A DNA stretch of 64,000 nt from Candidatus Woesearchaeota archaeon. Lineage in GTDB: Archaea > Nanobdellota > Nanobdellia > Woesearchaeales > UBA10216. This document shows positions 1,127 through 41,644 of the stretch, piece after piece. The position numbers were made by a program, and so were the translations under genes. The notes beneath the pieces were generated by a model. It worked only from the letters and a program-made list of their open reading frames with translations. It ran no database searches and was not told the DNA's origin. The DNA lies in the NCBI GenBank assembly GCA_016185705.1, contig JACPMZ010000010.1, positions 64,913 through 128,912 on the forward strand, read 5' to 3'. The first letter of the stretch is position 1. Every line of letters starts with the position of its first letter.

Positions 1127-1744
1127 TCACCGCGCAGTCTTCAGCATCTTCAGCCGTGAGAAGTTGTCGCGTTCCATTTCTTCCAGCCGGAATCTTATGT
1201 AGGCGGCATCTCTGTTTAGCCGGGGTATGGTTATTTGTTCCAGCGCGTTAACTTTTCTTTTTGTTCTTTCAATTTCCTTTAGAAGCCGCTTGAGCGTGAT
1301 GTCTATTTCTGCTGCTGCGATAATTTTCTCAACTAAGCTTTCGTATGCTTCTGCTGCTTCATCTATTTTTGAGGTTGCTGACAGCAGTCCATAGCCGCGT
1401 TCAAAGATGCTTTTTTTTACCTCTCCTGACTTTATTGAGGGTATTTTGACTCCCATTATGTTTTTTGTTTCAAGCTCTACCAGTGGCTGCCGCTTTATTG
1501 ACATTGCCGCAGATTTTATTTGGATGTCGCTGTCTATTGCGCGCGCTATGTTTATTTTTCCCAAAGCGCTGCGGTGCTCCTCAATAAGCGCTGCCCTTAT
1601 GTTTCTGGCTTTTTTCAGGATGCTGAAGAATTCCAGAATAAGACCGTCGCGTTTTTTCCTCAGGAGCTTGTGCCCTGACACTGCCAATGTTATTTTTTTC
1701 TTGACAAGCAGAAGCTCACTTCTTGTCGGCTTTACGTCTGCCAT
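1127..1744 (-). CDS. atpD: A/V-type ATP synthase subunit D
   Basis: [30 protein letters not shown] subunit D signature; last gene of the atp operon. Confidence 0.93.
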
Positions 1745-4499
1745 AGTATTTTGACCTCATTTCAGGGCTTATTCTGCCCAGCTCGTTTTCAGGGATTTCA
1801 GAAAGCAAGCTCCATCCTATGTCGAGCGTTGATGTGATGCTGCGCTCTTCGTTTTTGCTTTGCTTGACAAATCGGTTTTCAAATTCTGCTGCAAATTTCA
1901 GCAGCCTCCTGTCTCTTTCTGAAAGCGATTCCTCTCCCACTATGGCTACCAGTCCGCGCAAGTCCCTGCCTTCTGCGTAGAATGCATACATCTGGTCTGA
2001 TGCCTGCTTGTGGTCTTCCCTGGTTTTCTCTGCTCCAATTCCGAGATTCATGAGCCGTGAAAGGGAAGGCAGCACGTCTACAGGCGGATACACGTTGCGC
2101 CTGTGCAGTTCCCTGCTTAGGACGATTTGGCCTTCGCAATTGGAAACTATTATGCCGTTTTCGACTATAAAATTATGTGTTTTTGGTACGGTAACATCAT
2201 AAACTGAAGGCTCTCCGTCGACATTCTTTATTGAAATTATTTCGTCAAGAATAAAATTATTTTTTATTTTTTCCGATGCGCCTATTGTTGGCGGCAGTGT
2301 TGGTGATTTATCGAAATGCGTTGCCTTGAATTTTTCTTTTTTGGACAATTCTTCCAACAGGATTTTTCTTTCTTGATGCCTAACGTAGGGCAATATTTTT
2401 TTGGAAAGTATTTTGGCATAATAACTTTGAACCGTAAGCTCGTTTAATCTGCTGCCAAAACTTGCTTTGCCTTGATTTAGCGGCCTTATTGTGCTGGGAA
2501 TTCCTAACCGTTTTAGCAGTTGCTGCAGTCTCTTCATGCGCTTAAAATCCATGTCATTTGTGAATTTTTTGCGATATCTTATTCTGTTAAATTTTATGTC
2601 GCAATTGCCGTCACCATCAAAATATCCGGCTATGAATGCCGAAATTAATCGCTTGTCAAGAGAAAACAGTCCTGCCCAGTCCTCTGTGAGTTTCAAAGAA
2701 TGGGCAATCTCTGTTATTAAACAACTCGTCGCGCTTAATTGCGTTACATCGTGCTGATTTTTATGCTCCCACAGAGCTGTTTGGGGGAATAGTGCCTTAA
2801 AGGTATTTTTGTATGCTTTGATTAAATCGCTATTTTTGTTATTAAAATGGACTTGATATGCTTTATCATTTAAACTGCCATCAGAAAAAACAAGCCCATA
2901 CAAATACATTAAATCCTCATTGATTTTTTTCCATCTTAGTGATGTTTTAGTGCCGTTTATGACGGACACTGCTTCGATGTTTTTCAGAATTTCTTTAATG
3001 CTAATATCGAAAGTATTTCTAATCTGCCCCAGTTCTTTTGCATACAGAATACAAAGAGGGTGTGTGATTCTTACATAGCTTATTCCTAATTCTCTGCAGC
3101 CGCTTTTTATGTCCTTGTAGCCTGTTGCCAGCTTTTTTCTTATTTTTAGAATAAACTCTTTTCTTAGCGTAAAAACAAAATTTTTCCTGGCATTTGCGCA
3201 AATTTCCAGTATATTTGGTCTCTTTTCTTTTACTACATCCAGCTTCTTTAATGAAAATGCTCTGTCATTTATCTTAATTTTTCTTGCTTCAATCATTTTT
3301 GGGCCTTGCGGGGAGTCTATCAGGAATCTGTGGTCTCCTGTTGCTTTTACTTTAACGCCAGACCTGAACGTAAGTTCTAAAAGTTTTGCTCGCGTACTTA
3401 TTTTTTGGGAATCTGAAACTGAATAATAGCCCGGGTTGCCATTAACAGAAAGTATAGAGCCTTTTTTAAAGTTCTCTACAAAAGATTTTATTGGTAATAG
3501 CTCGCCTTCATTTTTAATTATTTCAGTTTCTCCTGATAGGCAAATGTATCCGCTTAAGTCAGGTATTGGGTGCGTGATGTCATCTCCTATCATTGTGAGG
3601 ATTGGCAGCTGGGTTATTGAGCCTTTTTTGCCTTTTATCATGCCAGCTCTTTCGTAGATGTTTGCTAAGGCAGTATACATGTATCCCGGATATCCGCGCC
3701 TGCCGGGGATTTCTTCCCGCGCTGAGCCGATTTCACGCAAAGACTCCGCATAGTTTGTCATATCAGTCAGTATTACCAGCACATGCATGTCCTTTTCAAA
3801 TGCCAGGTATTCGGCAGCTGTCAGCGCAAGCTGCGGGGTAAGCAATCTCTCAACAGCCGGGTCGTTCGCCAGATTCAGGAATACTGCTGAGCGTTCAAGC
3901 GCTCCTGTTTCTTCAAAGTCTTTTATGAATCTCTGCGCTTCTTCGTTGGTTATGCCCATGGCAGCAAATACTATTGCGAAGCTGCTTTCTTTTCCGACTA
4001 CTTTTGCCTGCCTTGCTATCTGCAGCGCTATTTCGTTGTGCGGCAGCCCTGACGCTGAAAAGATGGGCAGTTTCTGGCCGCGAACCAGCGTGTTCATGGC
4101 ATCTATGGTGGATACGCCTGTTTGTATGAAGTCGCTTGGGTTTGCTCTTGAGTACGGATTTATTGCTGCTCCTGATATGTCAAGTTTTTTTTCAGGCACA
4201 AGTTCAGGGCCTCCATCAATTGGTTTGCCTGCTCCGGAGAATATTCTGCCGAGAAGCTCTTTGGACACTGACAGCCGTATGGGCTGGTTTAGGAATTTGA
4301 CGCGGCTGTTTAAGTCAATGCCTGATGTTCCTTCAAACACCTGCACTACCACCACGTCTTCGCTGGTGTCCAGCACTTGTGCATTTTTTTCTTCGCTCTG
4401 CATCAGTATTTTTACCATGTCGCCGTAAGCAACCGGCTCTGTTTTTTTTACAAACACCAGTGGCCCTGCTACTCTGCTGATTGTTTTGTATTCCTTCAT
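1716..4499 (-). CDS. atpB: A/V-type ATP synthase subunit B interrupted by an intein
   Basis: Extein with subunit B motifs ([41 protein letters not shown]); 927 aa against about 459 aa after removing the intein. Confidence 0.95.
2139..3542 (-). other. Intein (about 468 aa) with LAGLIDADG homing endonuclease domain
   Basis: Begins CLSGETEI after extein ...IPDLSGYI; contains TGDHRFL block B, two LAGLIDADG-like motifs ([23 protein letters not shown]); ends [13 protein letters not shown] followed by Cys+1 and extein [11 protein letters not shown]. Confidence 0.94.
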
Positions 4500-4726
4500 T
4501 TTTGTTCACCAAAAATTAAGCTACGAACGCAGTGAGTTTGCTTCATTTTTGTTCACCAAAAATTAAGCTACGAACGCAGTGAGTCTGCTTCATTTTTGTC
4601 CACCAAAAATTAAGCTACGAACGCAGTGAGTCTGCTTCATTTTTGTCCACCAAAAATTAAGCTTACAGCTTTGTTGTAAGCTATGAGCGAAGTGAATATG
4701 CTGCGAACACGGTGAGTCTGCTTCAT
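4496..4726 (-). repeat. Tandem 47-bp repeats (x3) plus an 86-bp variant between atpA and atpB; each unit is a mini-ORF chained by ATGA
   Basis: ATGs at 4726, 4640, 4593, 4546, then atpB at 4499. Encoded peptides: [77 protein letters not shown]. Each stop TGA overlaps the next ATG. Confidence 0.95.
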
Positions 4727-6432
4727 TTTAATTCTGCTTCCATTTGTTTGTTTAGCGAATCCAGCTGTTTTTGGTAGTCTTTTGCGAATTTCACTTCCGC
4801 AAGCCTGTCCTTTGACTTGGCTGCCGCTATTTCAGAAACTTTTTTTCCTGACTTCAGCGCGCTGTATGCCAAATCCCCGTATTTTAATATGGATTTCATG
4901 AAAGCGTACGTTTTCTTTGGCTCTGAGTATGTGTCTATGTCGTGGAACGCATTTTGCTGCAGCATGACTTCCCTTATCTGCCTGGCTATCTGCAGTGTTA
5001 CCTGTTCCCGCTCAGGCAGCGCGTCTGACCCTACCAGTTGCACTATTTCTAGGAGCTTTTCTTCTTCCTGCAGGATTGACATGATTTTCCTTATTGTTGC
5101 CTGCCAGTCCTCAGCTACGTTTTTTGCAAACCACGGCTCTAATGCGTCAAGGTACAGCGAGTATGATGTGAGCCAGTTAATTGCCGGGAAGTGCCTTCGC
5201 TGTGCCAGCTTAGCATCCAATGCCCAGAAGCATTTTACCACTCTCAGCGTGCCTTGCGTCACTGGCTCTGAGAAGTCTCCTCCGGGAGGCGAGACTGCTC
5301 CGATCACTGATATTGAGCCTTCTGAATCGTTCAGGTTCTTGTAGCGCCCTGCCCGTTCATAGAATTCAGCCAGCCGTGTTGAAAGGTAAGCCGGGTATCC
5401 TTCTTCTCCGGGCAGTTCTTCAAGCCGTGAGGATATTTCTCTCATCGCTTCTGCCCATCTTGATGTTGAGTCTGCCATCATCGCCACGTCATAGCCCATG
5501 TCCCGGTAGTATTCTGCAAGCGTTATTCCGCAGTATATGCTTGCTTCCCTTGCTGCTACCGGCATGTTGGAGGTGTTTGCAATTAAGATGGTCCTGTTCA
5601 GCAATGGTTTTCCTGTTTTTGGGTCTTTAAGCTCAGGAAACTCTGTTAATACTTCTGTCATTTCGTTTCCGCGCTCGCCGCAGCCGACGTATACTATTAT
5701 TTCTGCGTCGCTCCATTTGGCCAGTTGCTGCTGAGAAACGGTTTTTCCGCTTCCGAAAGGCCCGGGTATTCCTGCCACGCCGCCTTTCGCTAATGGAAAC
5801 AGCGCGTCGAAGATTCTTTGTCCTGTGATTAGCGGGGTGTCGGGTGTCAGCTTGTTCTTGGTTGGCCTGGCTTTTCTTACCGGCCATTTCTGCATCAGCT
5901 TTATTTCTCCTCGGTCAAGTTTGCATACAGTTTCGTCCACAGTAAAGGAGCCCTGCTTTATTTCTGTTATTTTTCCGCTGAGGTTTGGAGGCGCCATTAT
6001 TTTGTGCGCTATCTGCCCTTCCTGCACCTCTCCGATAATGTCGCCTGCTTTTACTTCATATCCTGTTTTTGCGGTTGGTTTGAATTCCCACTTTTTTCTT
6101 CTGTCAAGCCCCGGTGCTGTTGCTCCGCGCTTTATAAAGTCGCCCATCTGCTTTTGCAGCGCTTCAAGCGGCCTTTGTATGCCGTCGTAGATTGAGCTCA
6201 GGAGTCCCGGGCCAAGTTCTACTGTAAGCGGCTCTCCTGTGTTTATTACCGCAGCGCCAGGCTTGATGCCTGTTGTGTCCTCGTATACCTGGATTGTGCA
6301 TCTGCTTCCGTTTATCTGGATTACTTCTCCCAGCAGCTTTTCCTCGCCTACCAGCACTATGTCGTACATCCTTGCGTCCAGTTCTGCCACAGCCACCGGA
6401 CCTGCCACTCTGTAGACTTTGCCTGTTTTCAT
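4723..6432 (-). CDS. atpA: A/V-type ATP synthase subunit A
   Basis: [40 protein letters not shown]; catalytic subunit motifs. Confidence 0.97.
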
Positions 6433-6717: not shown

Positions 6718-7749
6718 TTATACGATTATTTGTTTTTCCGTGAATTGCTCGCTTAATGACAGTTGCCGCGCTTTCAGCATGAGCTTAAGATTCTTTACCT
6801 CTATTTCTTTGGCAAACATGTATCCGAGTATTACGTCTATTGTCAGCGGGTGCTGGTGGAGCAGCAGCTTTGTTTTTTTGAGCAGTGTCTTTCCCAAATC
6901 TGTCTCTATGCCAGCTATGCTGCCTGCAGCAAGGTAGTTTTTTGAGGCATCTTCCGATATGCCGTACGGCAGCAGCAGCTTTATGGTTTCTTCTTTGCTG
7001 TCTGTGTCAATTATTCTTTTTACAGTGGCTGATGCTTTTCCTATGACAAAGTTTGGAAGCTTGTGTTTGTCTGTTCCCGCTTTTTTTAGCCGCAGTGCGT
7101 TGATTATGTTGTTAGTGTCCATTTCAGCTTCCAGGAATTGCTTGAATAGTTTGCCATCACTTGGAATTGATTGGGAGAGCTCTATCATTCTGTTGTAGTG
7201 CTCTCTGTCAAGAAAGTTTTCGATTTCTATGATTGTGTTTTGCGTTTTTAGCGATTCGTATGCGTTGCTCAGTTTTTCGAATTTTATTCCCGCTGCTTCA
7301 AGCTTTTTAAGGAATTCTTCCATGCTCTGCGATTTTATCAGGGATTCAAATTCCCGGGTGAGCCTGCCTGTTTGCATGAGCATTGAAGCGATGGTTTCAG
7401 GGCTTGTTTTTGTATGCAGGCCGCGCAGTATCGTTTTTATGTTCCAGAGGTCGGCGCGAAGCAGGTAGGTGTCTATAAGGCCGTTTATTTCTTTTGGCGA
7501 GATTTTTCGCAGCTTATTCCACGTGTCTGTAAGGTTTTTGTTGAGCGCCATTTCCATCAGCTCAACTCCGGAATGCTTTACTCCCAATTCGTCTATTGAT
7601 CGCTTGTATTCCAGACTTTGAAGGAAGCTGATTATTTCGTTCAGGCTCATTTTCATGATTTTATCATAGTCCTCTTTATGCAGCAGGCTTGAGCGCATGA
7701 CGCTTACCCTGGCATAGGTGTATGGATATGTTCTTCTTTGAAGCTTCAT
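6718..7749 (-). CDS. atpC: A/V-type ATP synthase subunit C
   Basis: YARVSVMRSSLL N-terminus, helical subunit C/d-like, operon position. Confidence 0.9.
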   Translation of the reverse strand: MKLQRRTYPYTYARVSVMRSSLLHKEDYDKIMKMSLNEIISFLQSLEYKRSIDELGVKHSGVELMEMALNKNLTDTWNKLRKISPKEINGLIDTYLLRADLWNIKTILRGLHTKTSPETIASMLMQTGRLTREFESLIKSQSMEEFLKKLEAAGIKFEKLSNAYESLKTQNTIIEIENFLDREHYNRMIELSQSIPSDGKLFKQFLEAEMDTNNIINALRLKKAGTDKHKLPNFVIGKASATVKRIIDTDSKEETIKLLLPYGISEDASKNYLAAGSIAGIETDLGKTLLKKTKLLLHQHPLTIDVILGYMFAKEIEVKNLKLMLKARQLSLSEQFTEKQIIV

Positions 7750-7882
7750 TTTTGCCCACCAAAAATGAAGCTACGAACACAGTGAGTCTGCTTCATTTTT
7801 GCCCACCAAAAATTAAGCTTACGACATTGTTGTAAGCTATGAACGTAGTGAATATGCTGCGAACACCGTGAGTCTGCTTCAT
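7746..7882 (-). repeat. Second locus of the same 86-bp + 47-bp mini-ORF repeat, between atpE and atpC
   Basis: ATGs at 7882 and 7796, then atpC at 7749: MKQTHGVRSIFTTFIAYNNVVSLIFGGQK*, MKQTHCVRSFIFGGQK*. Perfect 13-bp inverted repeat AGCTTCATTTTTG-(GTGGG)-CAAAAATGAAGCT at 7742-7772 includes the atpC ATG. Confidence 0.95.
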
Positions 7883-8430
7883 TTTTGTGTGAATAATATT
7901 CTGTCCAGCTCTGGAAGCGTTGACTCCCTGAGCTGCGTCAGTAATGTTTCGTAGCTGTAGTCAACCCGCAGCATGCCGTCCGTTGATTCTGCAATTAGGC
8001 CGCCGAGTATGTTTGTTTCCGCAGTTTTATACTTGGCTGCGTGTTTCAGGTCTTTTTTGCTGCAATAAATGCGCGCTATGTCTATTTCACTGGATGCTTT
8101 TGTGAGCAGCGCTTTGATGTGCTTTGCCCTTTCCGCGTCAGGCAGTTTCTCCAGCTTCCCTGATGCTTCCTGAAAGATTGAGTCCACCAGCTGCTTCCTT
8201 GACTGGAGCTCGAGCTTTTTCATTTCCAGCTTTGTGGCAGCTTGCTCGCGTTTTTTGATGAGCTCAATATCCTGCTGCAGGCGCTCAATGTATTCTGCTT
8301 CCTTTTGCCTGGCCTGCTTTGCTGTTGCGCTCACTATTGCCTGGGCTTCCTCTCTCGCTGCCTGCACTCGGCTTCCTGCTTCAAGCTCTGCCTCCTGCTT
8401 CACTTTTTCCTTTACCTTTTCAAGTCCCAT
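7879..8430 (-). CDS. atpE: A/V-type ATP synthase subunit E
   Basis: MGLEKVKEKVKQEAELEAGSRVQAAREEAQAIV coiled-coil stalk subunit, operon position. Confidence 0.9.
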   Translation of the reverse strand: MGLEKVKEKVKQEAELEAGSRVQAAREEAQAIVSATAKQARQKEAEYIERLQQDIELIKKREQAATKLEMKKLELQSRKQLVDSIFQEASGKLEKLPDAERAKHIKALLTKASSEIDIARIYCSKKDLKHAAKYKTAETNILGGLIAESTDGMLRVDYSYETLLTQLRESTLPELDRILFTQK

Positions 8431-12302: not shown

Positions 12303-13646
12303 TTAACGCTTGCGAGTTTTATATAGCATAAACAGCAACAAAATAATAAATACCGCGACCAACCACCTCTTATCAAATGAACGTTGGACAGCTTGCTCCC
12401 TTTTGAGTTCCTCTTCCGCAGGAACTAGCAGTTCATTAACTTTCTCAAAAGCTGTTATTGCCGAATTATACCTGTATTCTTTCAAATAGTTGTTACCTTC
12501 TACAAGTATTTTCTCTGCTTGTGCTGTTAAAGTTTTAGCATTTGAAATATTGTAGTTTGGTTCATAGAACAGGTTTGTTAATTGAAGATTGAGAAAGGAT
12601 GGTGGCAGCTTCTTCACTCTTTGGTAGTTTTCATTTGAGGTTGTTAAACCAGCTTCAGTTATCCTCTGCTTTTCTTGTACTCTTTGTCTGTACTTGGCTA
12701 AGATGGTTGTTGTTTCAGGGTTATCAAGGTGTAAATCTTGTTGGTTTAACTGGCTCATGGCTTTCTGAGCCAGTTCGCATTCATTTTCAGCTATTCTTAA
12801 TTCGTTATCAGGAGAGTGAGGATTTTTGCCAATTGATTTTATGTAAGGTATTGCGCCGGTGACTGCGTTCCCAAATTTGTTTGCAGTGCATCGAATTTTA
12901 CTCACATCAGAGTCCACATATTCGGCTAAGATGTTTTTTGCTTCTGAATCACAGTTCCTCAAAATTTTCGCTTGGCCTGCGATAACTCTTCTATTTTTAA
13001 TATTGTGTAAATATCCGTTACATTCTGTTAGCTTTTCCATGGCTTGCTTAAGGCTATTTTGGTTGATGTAACATGTGGCGCTTACTACCAAGTCAGCAGG
13101 ATTCAGTTTTTTAATAATGCCAATTGATTTGGCTGCTGTTAGCGACTCTTTGACTATTTGGCTTTTTCTTGTGTTCAGTAGCGGTCTCACTTCTTGTGCT
13201 GCTTCGCCCCCTATGTTCAATGCCTCTTGCTGCAATTTATCGATTCCGAAAAATGAGCACACGTCAAATGCGCTATCAAGCAGATATGCTTCATCAGAGA
13301 TGGTTCCATTTTCAATTTTTTTGTGTATGTAATCCAAGTCAGTTACTTCGGCGACATGGTCGTCTGTAAGAAATTCCTGGTTTTGCAAGTCAAAGGTGAT
13401 ACTTGTACATTCTTTGTTTACATCACAACACAGATATATGACAGGCACTGCAAGCTTGTGATTGTCTGAATTGAATAAATTTGACTGAGGGGTCCAATAG
13501 TTGAAGTAGTTCGCCACCGCACATACTTCCTCAGAATTGTTGAATTCGTTTATGTATTCATTCGCCGAGAGACCATAGCTGACGCTTGATAGGGCGAGCC
13601 ATAATAAAATCAAAATTCCTAATATCGACACTTTCTCAATCTTCAT
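12303..13646 (-). CDS. Secreted, C-terminally membrane-anchored hypothetical protein
   Basis: Signal peptide (MKIEKVSILGILILLWLALSSVSYGLSA) and C-terminal TM plus basic tail (WLVAVFIILLLFMLYKTRKR). Confidence 0.75.
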   Translation of the reverse strand: MKIEKVSILGILILLWLALSSVSYGLSANEYINEFNNSEEVCAVANYFNYWTPQSNLFNSDNHKLAVPVIYLCCDVNKECTSITFDLQNQEFLTDDHVAEVTDLDYIHKKIENGTISDEAYLLDSAFDVCSFFGIDKLQQEALNIGGEAAQEVRPLLNTRKSQIVKESLTAAKSIGIIKKLNPADLVVSATCYINQNSLKQAMEKLTECNGYLHNIKNRRVIAGQAKILRNCDSEAKNILAEYVDSDVSKIRCTANKFGNAVTGAIPYIKSIGKNPHSPDNELRIAENECELAQKAMSQLNQQDLHLDNPETTTILAKYRQRVQEKQRITEAGLTTSNENYQRVKKLPPSFLNLQLTNLFYEPNYNISNAKTLTAQAEKILVEGNNYLKEYRYNSAITAFEKVNELLVPAEEELKREQAVQRSFDKRWLVAVFIILLLFMLYKTRKR

Positions 13647-13678
13647 AATCGGATGGAGAATCTACCAGTATATAAAGC

Positions 13679-39510: not shown

Positions 39511-39998
39511 TTTGGCTTTGTTATTATTTTTTCCATTTCCTTTTTGGATTCTTTTCTTTTGTCTTCCTCTGATTTTTTGGGCTCTTCGGTTTTTTTGGAG
39601 GGCTGCTCTGATTTTTTCTGCTGCCGGTGTTTTTTTCGCTGCTCAGCTGCTTCCCTTATTTTCTGCTCGTAATTTTCAGCTACGTTCAGCACCTTCAGTT
39701 TTTTTGCTGCCGCTTCTTTGAGCATCTGCAGTCTTTTTTTTATCCCTACTGTTGATGCGATTATGATTCCCTGTTTTGAAGCGTTCTGCACTTCAGCTGG
39801 GCTGTGTACAAGGGCTGTTTGTATTCCTGATGGGTGCATGTATCGTTCTTCTTCCGGGCGGCGGTATCCTTGCGAGGGCATCTTTGGGTTGCCCTTGATA
39901 TTGTGTCTCATTTTTGAGTGATGGCCTTTTGGGTGTCTCCATGTTCTTGGAAGCCGTTTTAGCTTCCATGAGTCCTGTGTTTGGAACTGCTTAGGCAT
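39507..39998 (-). CDS. rpl32e: 50S ribosomal protein L32e with Lys/Glu-rich C-terminal extension
   Basis: SWKLKRLPRTWRHPKGHHSKMRHNIKGNPKMPSQGYRRPEEERYMHPSG. Confidence 0.93.
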   Translation of the reverse strand: MPKQFQTQDSWKLKRLPRTWRHPKGHHSKMRHNIKGNPKMPSQGYRRPEEERYMHPSGIQTALVHSPAEVQNASKQGIIIASTVGIKKRLQMLKEAAAKKLKVLNVAENYEQKIREAAEQRKKHRQQKKSEQPSKKTEEPKKSEEDKRKESKKEMEKIITKPK

Positions 39999-40512
39999 TT
40001 GGGACCACCATTATTATGCCGTCCTGGAATCTTCTTCTGTCGAATGCTGTGCGTCTTGTTAGTTTTTCTATTGCGCCCATGGTTGCGCCTGCAAGCTCTT
40101 TGTCGCAGCTTTCTATGTCTATTTCGCTGCCGCTTGTTTTTACCTGCACTCCTTCGGGGATGGTAAATTTGCGTGGCAGTTTCTCGCCGAAATAGTTTGA
40201 TACTGTGAACTGCCTGCCTTCTGCCTTTACTGAGATGGGGAAGTGTCCTGAGAGTATTTTCATTTTGTATCTGTGGCCCTCAAGCGCTCCTTGTATCATG
40301 TTTTTTATGTGCGCTCTGTAGCTTCCTGCTATTTTGCGCTCCCTTTTGCTGTCTCTTTTTGATTTTAGCGTTATGCCTGATTCCTCCGCAGCTACATTCA
40401 CTGTTGCGCTTGTGAAGTTTCTGGTTACTTCTCCTTTTGGGCCGCGGACTGTCAGTTTTTGTCCGTCTGATGCTGCGGTTACTTTTTCCGGGATTTTTAT
40501 TGTTTCGTCCAT
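39991..40512 (-). CDS. rpl6: 50S ribosomal protein L6
   Basis: MDETIKIPEKVTAASDGQKLTVRGPKGEVTRNF; start at 40512, the upstream part of ORF 39991-41022 is out-of-frame S8/S14. Confidence 0.95.
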   Translation of the reverse strand: MDETIKIPEKVTAASDGQKLTVRGPKGEVTRNFTSATVNVAAEESGITLKSKRDSKRERKIAGSYRAHIKNMIQGALEGHRYKMKILSGHFPISVKAEGRQFTVSNYFGEKLPRKFTIPEGVQVKTSGSEIDIESCDKELAGATMGAIEKLTRRTAFDRRRFQDGIIMVVPNA

Positions 40513-40514
40513 TT

Positions 40515-40904
40515 TCAGTAAAAGTACGCCAGCAGCCGCCCTCCTATCATTTTTTGTTTGGCTTCTGTGTGCGTCATTATTCCCTGCGGTGTGCTTACTA
40601 TGATGAAGCCGAAGTCTTTTGCTGGCAGGTATTTTTTCTCGAATTTCTCGAATTCGTTGTTTTTTACTGCAAACCTTGGCTTGATGGCGCCGCACTTGTT
40701 TATTGCTCCAAGCAGCTCTACGCTGAGTTTTGTTCCCCTGGCTGTTTGCGTTTCTGTGAAGCTGCCTATGTAGCTTTGTTTGTTCATGATGTCCAGCACT
40801 TTTTTCAGCACTTTTGACGTCGTTGTTATGATGCAGTTTCTTTTGCTTCGCTGCTCTGCATTGAGCATGAGCGATAGTGCGTTTGCTACTGGGTCGTTTG
40901 ACAT
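40515..40904 (-). CDS. rps8: 30S ribosomal protein S8
   Basis: SNDPVANALSLMLNAEQRSKRNCIITTTSKVLKKVLDIM. Confidence 0.95.
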   Translation of the reverse strand: MSNDPVANALSLMLNAEQRSKRNCIITTTSKVLKKVLDIMNKQSYIGSFTETQTARGTKLSVELLGAINKCGAIKPRFAVKNNEFEKFEKKYLPAKDFGFIIVSTPQGIMTHTEAKQKMIGGRLLAYFY

Positions 40905-40910
40905 TTTTGG

Positions 40911-41141
40911 TCAGCTGTATTTTTTGAATCCGAGTTTTTCTGCGCTGTCCCGGAAGCAGCGCCTGCACATTTTTATTCCGTATTTGCTTATCAGGCCGCG
41001 TGTGTTTCCGCATTCCTCGCATTGCTTGGTTCCTTTTCCGAATTTTCTGGGCTTTGGCTTGTTGTGTTTGAGGTAGCGCTTGAGTATTTCCGGTTTGGCC
41101 TTGAGCTGTTTCAGCATTTTTGTATAGGATGAAACTGTCAT
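40911..41141 (-). CDS. rps14: 30S ribosomal protein S14 (Zn type)
   Basis: GTKQCEECGNTRGLISKYGIKMCRRCFRDSAEKLGFKKYS; start assigned at 41141. Confidence 0.92.
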   Translation of the reverse strand: MTVSSYTKMLKQLKAKPEILKRYLKHNKPKPRKFGKGTKQCEECGNTRGLISKYGIKMCRRCFRDSAEKLGFKKYS

Positions 41142-41644
41142 TGCACTGCCACCTTGTATTCGTTTGTCATGTAGCTGATTGCTTCTTCCTTGGTTATTAT
41201 GTGTTTTTTTGATATTGTGCTTTTCCTGTTGCGGCGTTTCTTTACCCTGTATCCTGCTCTTTCGAGCGTTACGCATACCTCAAGCCCCATTATTCCGATT
41301 TCCGGGTCGTATTTTGCGCCTGGGATGTCTATGTATTCGTGGATTCCGAAGGCGATGTTTCCGGCGCCATCAAATTGTTTCTGCGTCAGCTTGTTTTCCT
41401 TTGCCTGCAGCAGTCTGCTCAGCACTTCCTTTGCCGGTGTTTTTCTTAGCGTGAGTTTGCACCCCAGCGGAAGTCCTGGGCGCACGCCCCACGTCGGTAT
41501 TCTCTTTGTGGTGAATGTTTTGACGGGATTGCGCCCTGCTATGTGGCTTATAAGTTTCATGCCTTTGTCCAGCTTGGCTGTATTTGTGCCTGCTCCGATG
41601 TTGAGCGTTATCTTCGCTACCTTGATGTTTTTCATGATGTTCAT
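41138..41644 (-). CDS. rpl5: 50S ribosomal protein L5
   Basis: KVAKITLNIGAGTNTAKLDKGMKLISHIAGRNPVKTFTTKRIPTWGVRPGLPLGC. Confidence 0.95.
   Translation of the reverse strand: MNIMKNIKVAKITLNIGAGTNTAKLDKGMKLISHIAGRNPVKTFTTKRIPTWGVRPGLPLGCKLTLRKTPAKEVLSRLLQAKENKLTQKQFDGAGNIAFGIHEYIDIPGAKYDPEIGIMGLEVCVTLERAGYRVKKRRNRKSTISKKHIITKEEAISYMTNEYKVAVQ

Follow-up and report, generated by a model that had tools for sequence, protein, structure and literature searches.

At the atpE/atpC junction of a woesearchaeal A-type ATPase operon, as at other gene starts of the same genome, we find a short repeat with an open reading frame that we read, with a probability of about 0.72, as a short, dispersed mobile element of the Woesearchaeales that targets start codons and is tolerated because termination-reinitiation is preserved, the encoded peptides being by-products. 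The window, that is, the whole stretch of 64,000 nucleotides that was analysed (positions 64,913 to 128,912 of contig JACPMZ010000010.1, Candidatus Woesearchaeota archaeon), belongs to a genome of 1.23 Mb in 14 contigs (G000) and holds the operon on its minus strand, where Pfam confirms subunits E (vATP-synt_E), C/AC39 (vATP-synt_AC39), A and B. In the order of transcription, the features of the operon and of its two repeat-bearing junctions are the following.

7879-8430, minus strand: atpE (A-type ATPase subunit E; PF01991), whose stop overlaps the start of mini-ORF 1 by ATGA
7793-7882, minus strand: mini-ORF 1 of atpE/atpC, the 86-nt unit, with two core copies and hairpins; peptide MKQTHGVRSIFTTFIAYNNVVSLIFGGQK, then stop
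7746-7796, minus strand: mini-ORF 2 of atpE/atpC, the 47-nt unit; peptide MKQTHCVRSFIFGGQK, then stop
7771-7790, minus strand: conserved 20-nt core CAGACTCACTGTGTTCGTAG in unit 2 of atpE/atpC
7744-7770, minus strand: hairpin CTTCATTTTT-GGTGGGC-AAAAATGAAG, read from the sequence, with the Shine-Dalgarno-like GGTG in its loop and the atpC start codon in its 3' arm
6718-7749, minus strand: atpC (subunit C/AC39; PF01992)
4723-6432, minus strand: atpA (Pfam)
4637-4726, minus strand: mini-ORF 1 of atpA/atpB (86-nt unit)
4590-4640, minus strand: mini-ORF 2 of atpA/atpB (47-nt unit)
4543-4593, minus strand: mini-ORF 3 of atpA/atpB (47-nt unit)
4496-4546, minus strand: mini-ORF 4 of atpA/atpB (47-nt unit), ATGA-linked to atpB
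1716-4499, minus strand: atpB with an intein (LAGLIDADG domain; Pfam)

The first-pass annotation had described the atpE/atpC junction as one 86-nt and one 47-nt unit with ATGA at both ends, and direct reading confirms this. Mini-ORF 1 (29 residues, 90 nt with its stop) starts 4 nt before the end of atpE, within an ATGA, and mini-ORF 2 (16 residues, 51 nt) shares an ATGA overlap both with mini-ORF 1 and with atpC. The atpA/atpB junction (4496-4726) contains four ATGA-linked mini-ORFs in units of 86, 47, 47 and 47 nt (90, 51, 51 and 51 nt with stop). The two junctions share a block of 143 nt at 93% identity, detected with a repeat finder, its copies lying 3156 nt apart.

When 31 copies drawn from many genomes are aligned, they yield a core consensus of about 20 nt, CAnACTCACT-n(1-3)-CGTTCGTAG, followed in turn by an arm complementary to a gene start, a spacer and a copy of the same start. 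Unit 2 of atpE/atpC reads CAGACTCACTGTGTTCGTAG / CTTCATTTTT / GGTGGGC / AAAAATGAAG, where the final block is the start of atpC, and the 86-nt unit is composed of two successive cores and then two hairpin modules. The arms usually follow the gene start where this is ATGAGG or ATGCAAG (L189, L166); at L178, the right arm has kept the common form. Across the 41 gene-start loci considered, the right arm is complementary to the start of its own gene over 9.9 nt, versus 7.9 nt for the starts of other genes (0/500 permutations), ATGAGG and ATGCAAG starts being among those counted, and a Shine-Dalgarno-like 4-mer precedes the new ATG in 27 of them, compared with 14.5 in shuffles. No Rfam family scored above its gathering threshold for the element.

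Chains of ATGA-linked mini-ORFs occur at a minimum of five junctions in the window's genome: atpE/atpC, atpA/atpB, cobalamin adenosyltransferase/nrdR, purA/purH and purF/purD. Searches of its 1.23 Mb with a 24-mer core (≤3 mismatches) gave matches only at the three junctions with 47-nt units, the third pair lying between the cobalamin adenosyltransferase gene and an nrdR-like gene, and 0 control matches; across the order, the core pattern gave 41 exact matches and the reversed control pattern 0, so the repeat is not a product of chance. The core is present in 79 of the 353 genomes of the order. Using a core profile search, we also detected a second sub-family with units of about 80 nt, located at purA/purH and purF/purD (L174, L175; G000:C4:46200-47700 and 39900-41200), where the pur gene names are read from translations with no database match behind them. 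Three mini-ORFs lie between purA and purH, all of them ATGA-linked and the first on the purA stop, and three ATGA-linked units after purF precede a short ORF upstream of purD. A decayed unit was found upstream of one further gene start in this genome.

With five junctions in one genome and approximately 41 gene starts in the order, the earlier proposal of a recurring device, as opposed to a chance local tandem duplication, is borne out. Its assumption that the two atp junctions are independent does not hold: a single shared element has been copied, and, as the copies are related by descent, the junctions are not independent inventions. Both relatives from the same genus have a plain ATGA overlap at atpE/atpC, without a unit (AAAAATGAAACAA; AAAAATGAAACAATTAAC), and both also lack the unit at the start of nrdR; given these empty sites, the atpC and nrdR copies are recent in this lineage. 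At atpA/atpB, all three members of the window's genus carry units, and G004, which belongs to a more distant, related genus, has a plain ATGA overlap.

We propose that the element, presumably moved by an enzyme, would land at or just 3' of the start codon of a gene, bringing with it the 20-nt core, an arm of the CTTTCATTTTG type, a spacer that often includes a Shine-Dalgarno-like motif and a start-region copy of the CAAAATGAAAG type. The old start codon would then open a mini-ORF extending across the core and terminating at the TGA of the new ATGA, the ATG of which would serve as the new start of the gene. Ribosomes finishing the upstream gene or the preceding unit would reinitiate on the mini-ORF and subsequently on the gene, and in this way coupling would survive; insertions that break the frame would be selected against and only those that keep it open retained, irrespective of the peptide. 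In Haloferax, an inserted intergenic gap of around 20 nt nearly abolishes reinitiation, and in Escherichia coli 15 nt at the 3' end of the upstream ORF are enough for it (PMC10666635). On the basis of these data, an untranslated insert of 133 nt at atpE/atpC should uncouple the two genes, and an ATGA-linked chain of mini-ORFs should not.

The chained mini-ORFs and the hairpins could also have been co-opted together as a translational attenuator setting subunit ratios, for example AtpC below AtpE, a reading that we consider unlikely. One arm is common to the core hairpin and the start-codon hairpin, which could be mutually exclusive, and the junction RNA folds better than shuffles at both atpE/atpC (z -3.9) and atpA/atpB (z -2.1). 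In the global minimum free energy structure of the whole atpE/atpC junction, the arm of the 7744-7770 hairpin pairs with an upstream copy instead of forming the local start hairpin. A structural switch is conceivable. The atpA/atpB start has been struck in several lineages (G000, G001, G002, L061, L070, L099, L156 and L210). However, the target genes are unrelated (atp, nrdR, purH, purD and many others), the number of units is variable, presence is patchy between close relatives, and the same core also occurs in tRNA T-loops and intergenic DNA, all of which argues against a co-opted regulator.

The reading frame bears on whether the insertions are tolerated through coupling, as in the mobile-element reading, or are passive DNA repeats whose ATGA links arise only from the targeting of ATGA-containing starts, with the frame unselected. 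Since the ATGA comes with the target itself, coupling would seem to be present in one-third of insertions made at random. Between the upstream ATG and the ATG of the gene, the distance was nevertheless 2 mod 3 in 31 of 41 distinct gene starts, with 14 expected (1 mod 3 in five, 0 mod 3 in five; binomial p 4e-8), many of these copies being 68 nt long and related and thus not all independent; when each length was counted once, 12 of 19 were at 2 mod 3 (p 0.007). The TAG of the core is in frame at only one of the 41 loci, because n, the length of the loop, covaries with the spacing between ATG and core. Given these figures, passive repeats are a very improbable explanation. The frame test started from 47 rows, from which six mis-assigned or doubtful ones were removed by hand, and control frames +1 and +2 were computed, the mod-3 test being preferred because frame +1 begins on TGA. 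The mini-ORF stops exactly on the ATGA of the gene in 26 of the 41 cases and within -5 to +14 nt of its start in 32, and in 13 the stop of the upstream gene coincides with the ATGA of the mini-ORF. Against the mobile-element reading, approximately one-third of the gene-start copies have no ATGA ending, and at some a stop occurs far ahead of the gene (L157, L166, L184). At L103, a nucleotidyltransferase-like protein carries a unit as an in-frame N-terminal fusion.

The coding constraint claimed in the first-pass annotation is supported as far as the frame is concerned, the open ATGA-to-ATGA frame being retained far above chance, and is not supported for the peptide. The codon-position check that had been named beforehand gave 7/8/11 polymorphic sites at positions 1/2/3 among copies within the genome (3/1/3 in the 86-mers, 0/1/5 in the 47-mers and 4/6/3 in the 80-mers), and, with no bias among positions, the peptides give no indication of being under selection. 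Functional micropeptides, which the open frames and the related peptides at the two junctions might suggest, are thus scarcely credible: changes are mostly non-synonymous (five of the six codons that differ between the two atp 86-mers), and different copies use two reading frames of the core (MKQTHxVRS and MKAxSLxFVAFIL). To judge from the sequences, the frame, the length and the absence of stops look constrained, and only these.

The same core was detected in the T-loop of 13 tRNA genes of the order, between positions 59 and 60, and further copies lie in intergenic DNA. ARAGORN found none of the 13 tRNA genes with the insert in place and, after its removal, five clearly and one doubtfully. 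The flanks of the insert, GTTCAA and TTGAA, can pair as a bulge-helix-bulge (BHB) intron requires, and inspection revealed the UUCAA/UUGAA pairing in nearly all copies. The window's genome has one such gene, a tRNA-Glu(CTC) with a 47-nt core-containing insert in the T-loop (L177, G000:C5:76576-76611), which ARAGORN detects only after removal. Other copies of the core lie beside the 3' ends of FtsX-like permease genes, in antisense and with target-like hairpins (L066, L068, L078, L079 and L080), and in G042, from another family, the core is located within a MITE-like element bounded by inverted repeats of the GGCTCTGTCCTAA type (L034, L044, L052 and L054). Viral contigs gave 0 exact matches to the extended core.

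That the mRNA insertions are themselves BHB introns and are spliced out, as the related T-loop insertions presumably are, is the least plausible reading of all: the core is the same, the boundaries are similar in tRNA and mRNA (CAnACTCACT...GAAAG) and excision would restore the ancestral junction, but inspection of the flanks shows that, in the tRNAs, UUCAA at the end of the exon is paired with UUGAA at the end of the insert, whereas the mRNA ends are identical (AUGAAG...AUGAAG) and cannot form such a helix, and splicing would need no open frame. An extension of the mobile-element reading, to which we give somewhat less than even odds, is that a single mobile family appears in two disguises, as an excisable BHB intron in tRNA T-loops and as a ribosome-relaying mini-ORF with its own Shine-Dalgarno motif and ATG at operon start codons, its arms being adapted to the individual target either through guide-like pairing or through copying of the target on insertion.

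Regarding the mover, the Y1 transposase profile (PF01797) gave 0 matches in the window's genome, and no transposase or other mover was identified, a point against the mobile-element reading. A Y1/RAYT transposase is unconvincing as a candidate, being present in 40 of the 79 genomes with the core (counted by hand) versus 125 of 353 overall, and absent from the window's genome. In G004, a tRNA-Arg with a core insert has a Y1 transposase gene (13306-13659) about 0.7 kb away (L040, G004:C54:12837-15862).

We found no description of such an element in archaea in the literature, as covered by open-licence papers, and several known systems share parts of its organization. Among archaeal introns, the BHB tRNA introns of Thermoproteales have sequence in common, and intron transposition has been described for them (review, PMC4090602). 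In both cases, one sequence family is found in several tRNA genes, here as 13 T-loop insertions with a common core, but the woesearchaeal mRNA copies lack the exon-intron complementarity needed for a BHB and are read as ORFs. Through the core that they share with the T-loop insertions, mRNA start sites are connected with mobile tRNA introns, and this connection may show by what means such short elements move.

REP/BIME sequences are short dispersed elements with a GTAG beside a hairpin, a layout that the woesearchaeal element resembles. It differs from the REP/RAYT system in that the window's genome has no Y1 transposase and the hairpin arms follow the target instead of being conserved. The palindromic elements of Rickettsia are mobile palindromes with coding content that lie within ORFs and lengthen the encoded proteins. 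PARCEL repeats are likewise palindromic, mobile and endowed with coding content, and lie inside ORFs, where they add residues to proteins (PMC2996958). The woesearchaeal element is also a palindromic mobile repeat with coding content, but, with the one in-frame fusion as exception, its units lie between genes as separate mini-ORFs.

The closest likeness is to the mycobacterial interspersed repetitive units (MIRUs), short and apparently mobile repeats whose insertion at a start codon leaves an internal ORF coupled to the gene at -4 nt (ATGA), with little expected effect on expression (PMC12548453, a 2025 review). The woesearchaeal repeat similarly carries an ORF with a -4 nt overlap to the downstream gene, where the overlap is seen and coupling would follow from it, and its units are dispersed over several loci, at start codons or stop/start overlaps that are empty in relatives. 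Tandem copies and upstream overlaps, reportedly part of the original 1997 description of MIRUs, are also found here. The differences are the archaeal host, palindromic arms matched to the start that is targeted, the presence of the core in tRNA T-loops and an unrelated core sequence, the last judged from a scan of GTDB species genomes with the woesearchaeal core. That scan for the gene-start core returned 16 woesearchaeal or other archaeal stretches, no mycobacterial match and three bacterial matches, which were rejected as true copies because of an immediate in-frame TAG and appear chance-like. The MIRU-like arrangement, already known in mycobacteria, is thus found here in archaea with an unrelated sequence, and the tRNA link appears to be the most novel part. 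Within the genus, one and the same junction may be filled or empty, and these natural variants make it possible to test whether archaeal coupling requires the overlap. The apparent use in a second domain of life of the MIRU strategy, in which a coupled mini-ORF conceals an insertion at a stop/start overlap, points to convergence, with termination-reinitiation as the driving force.
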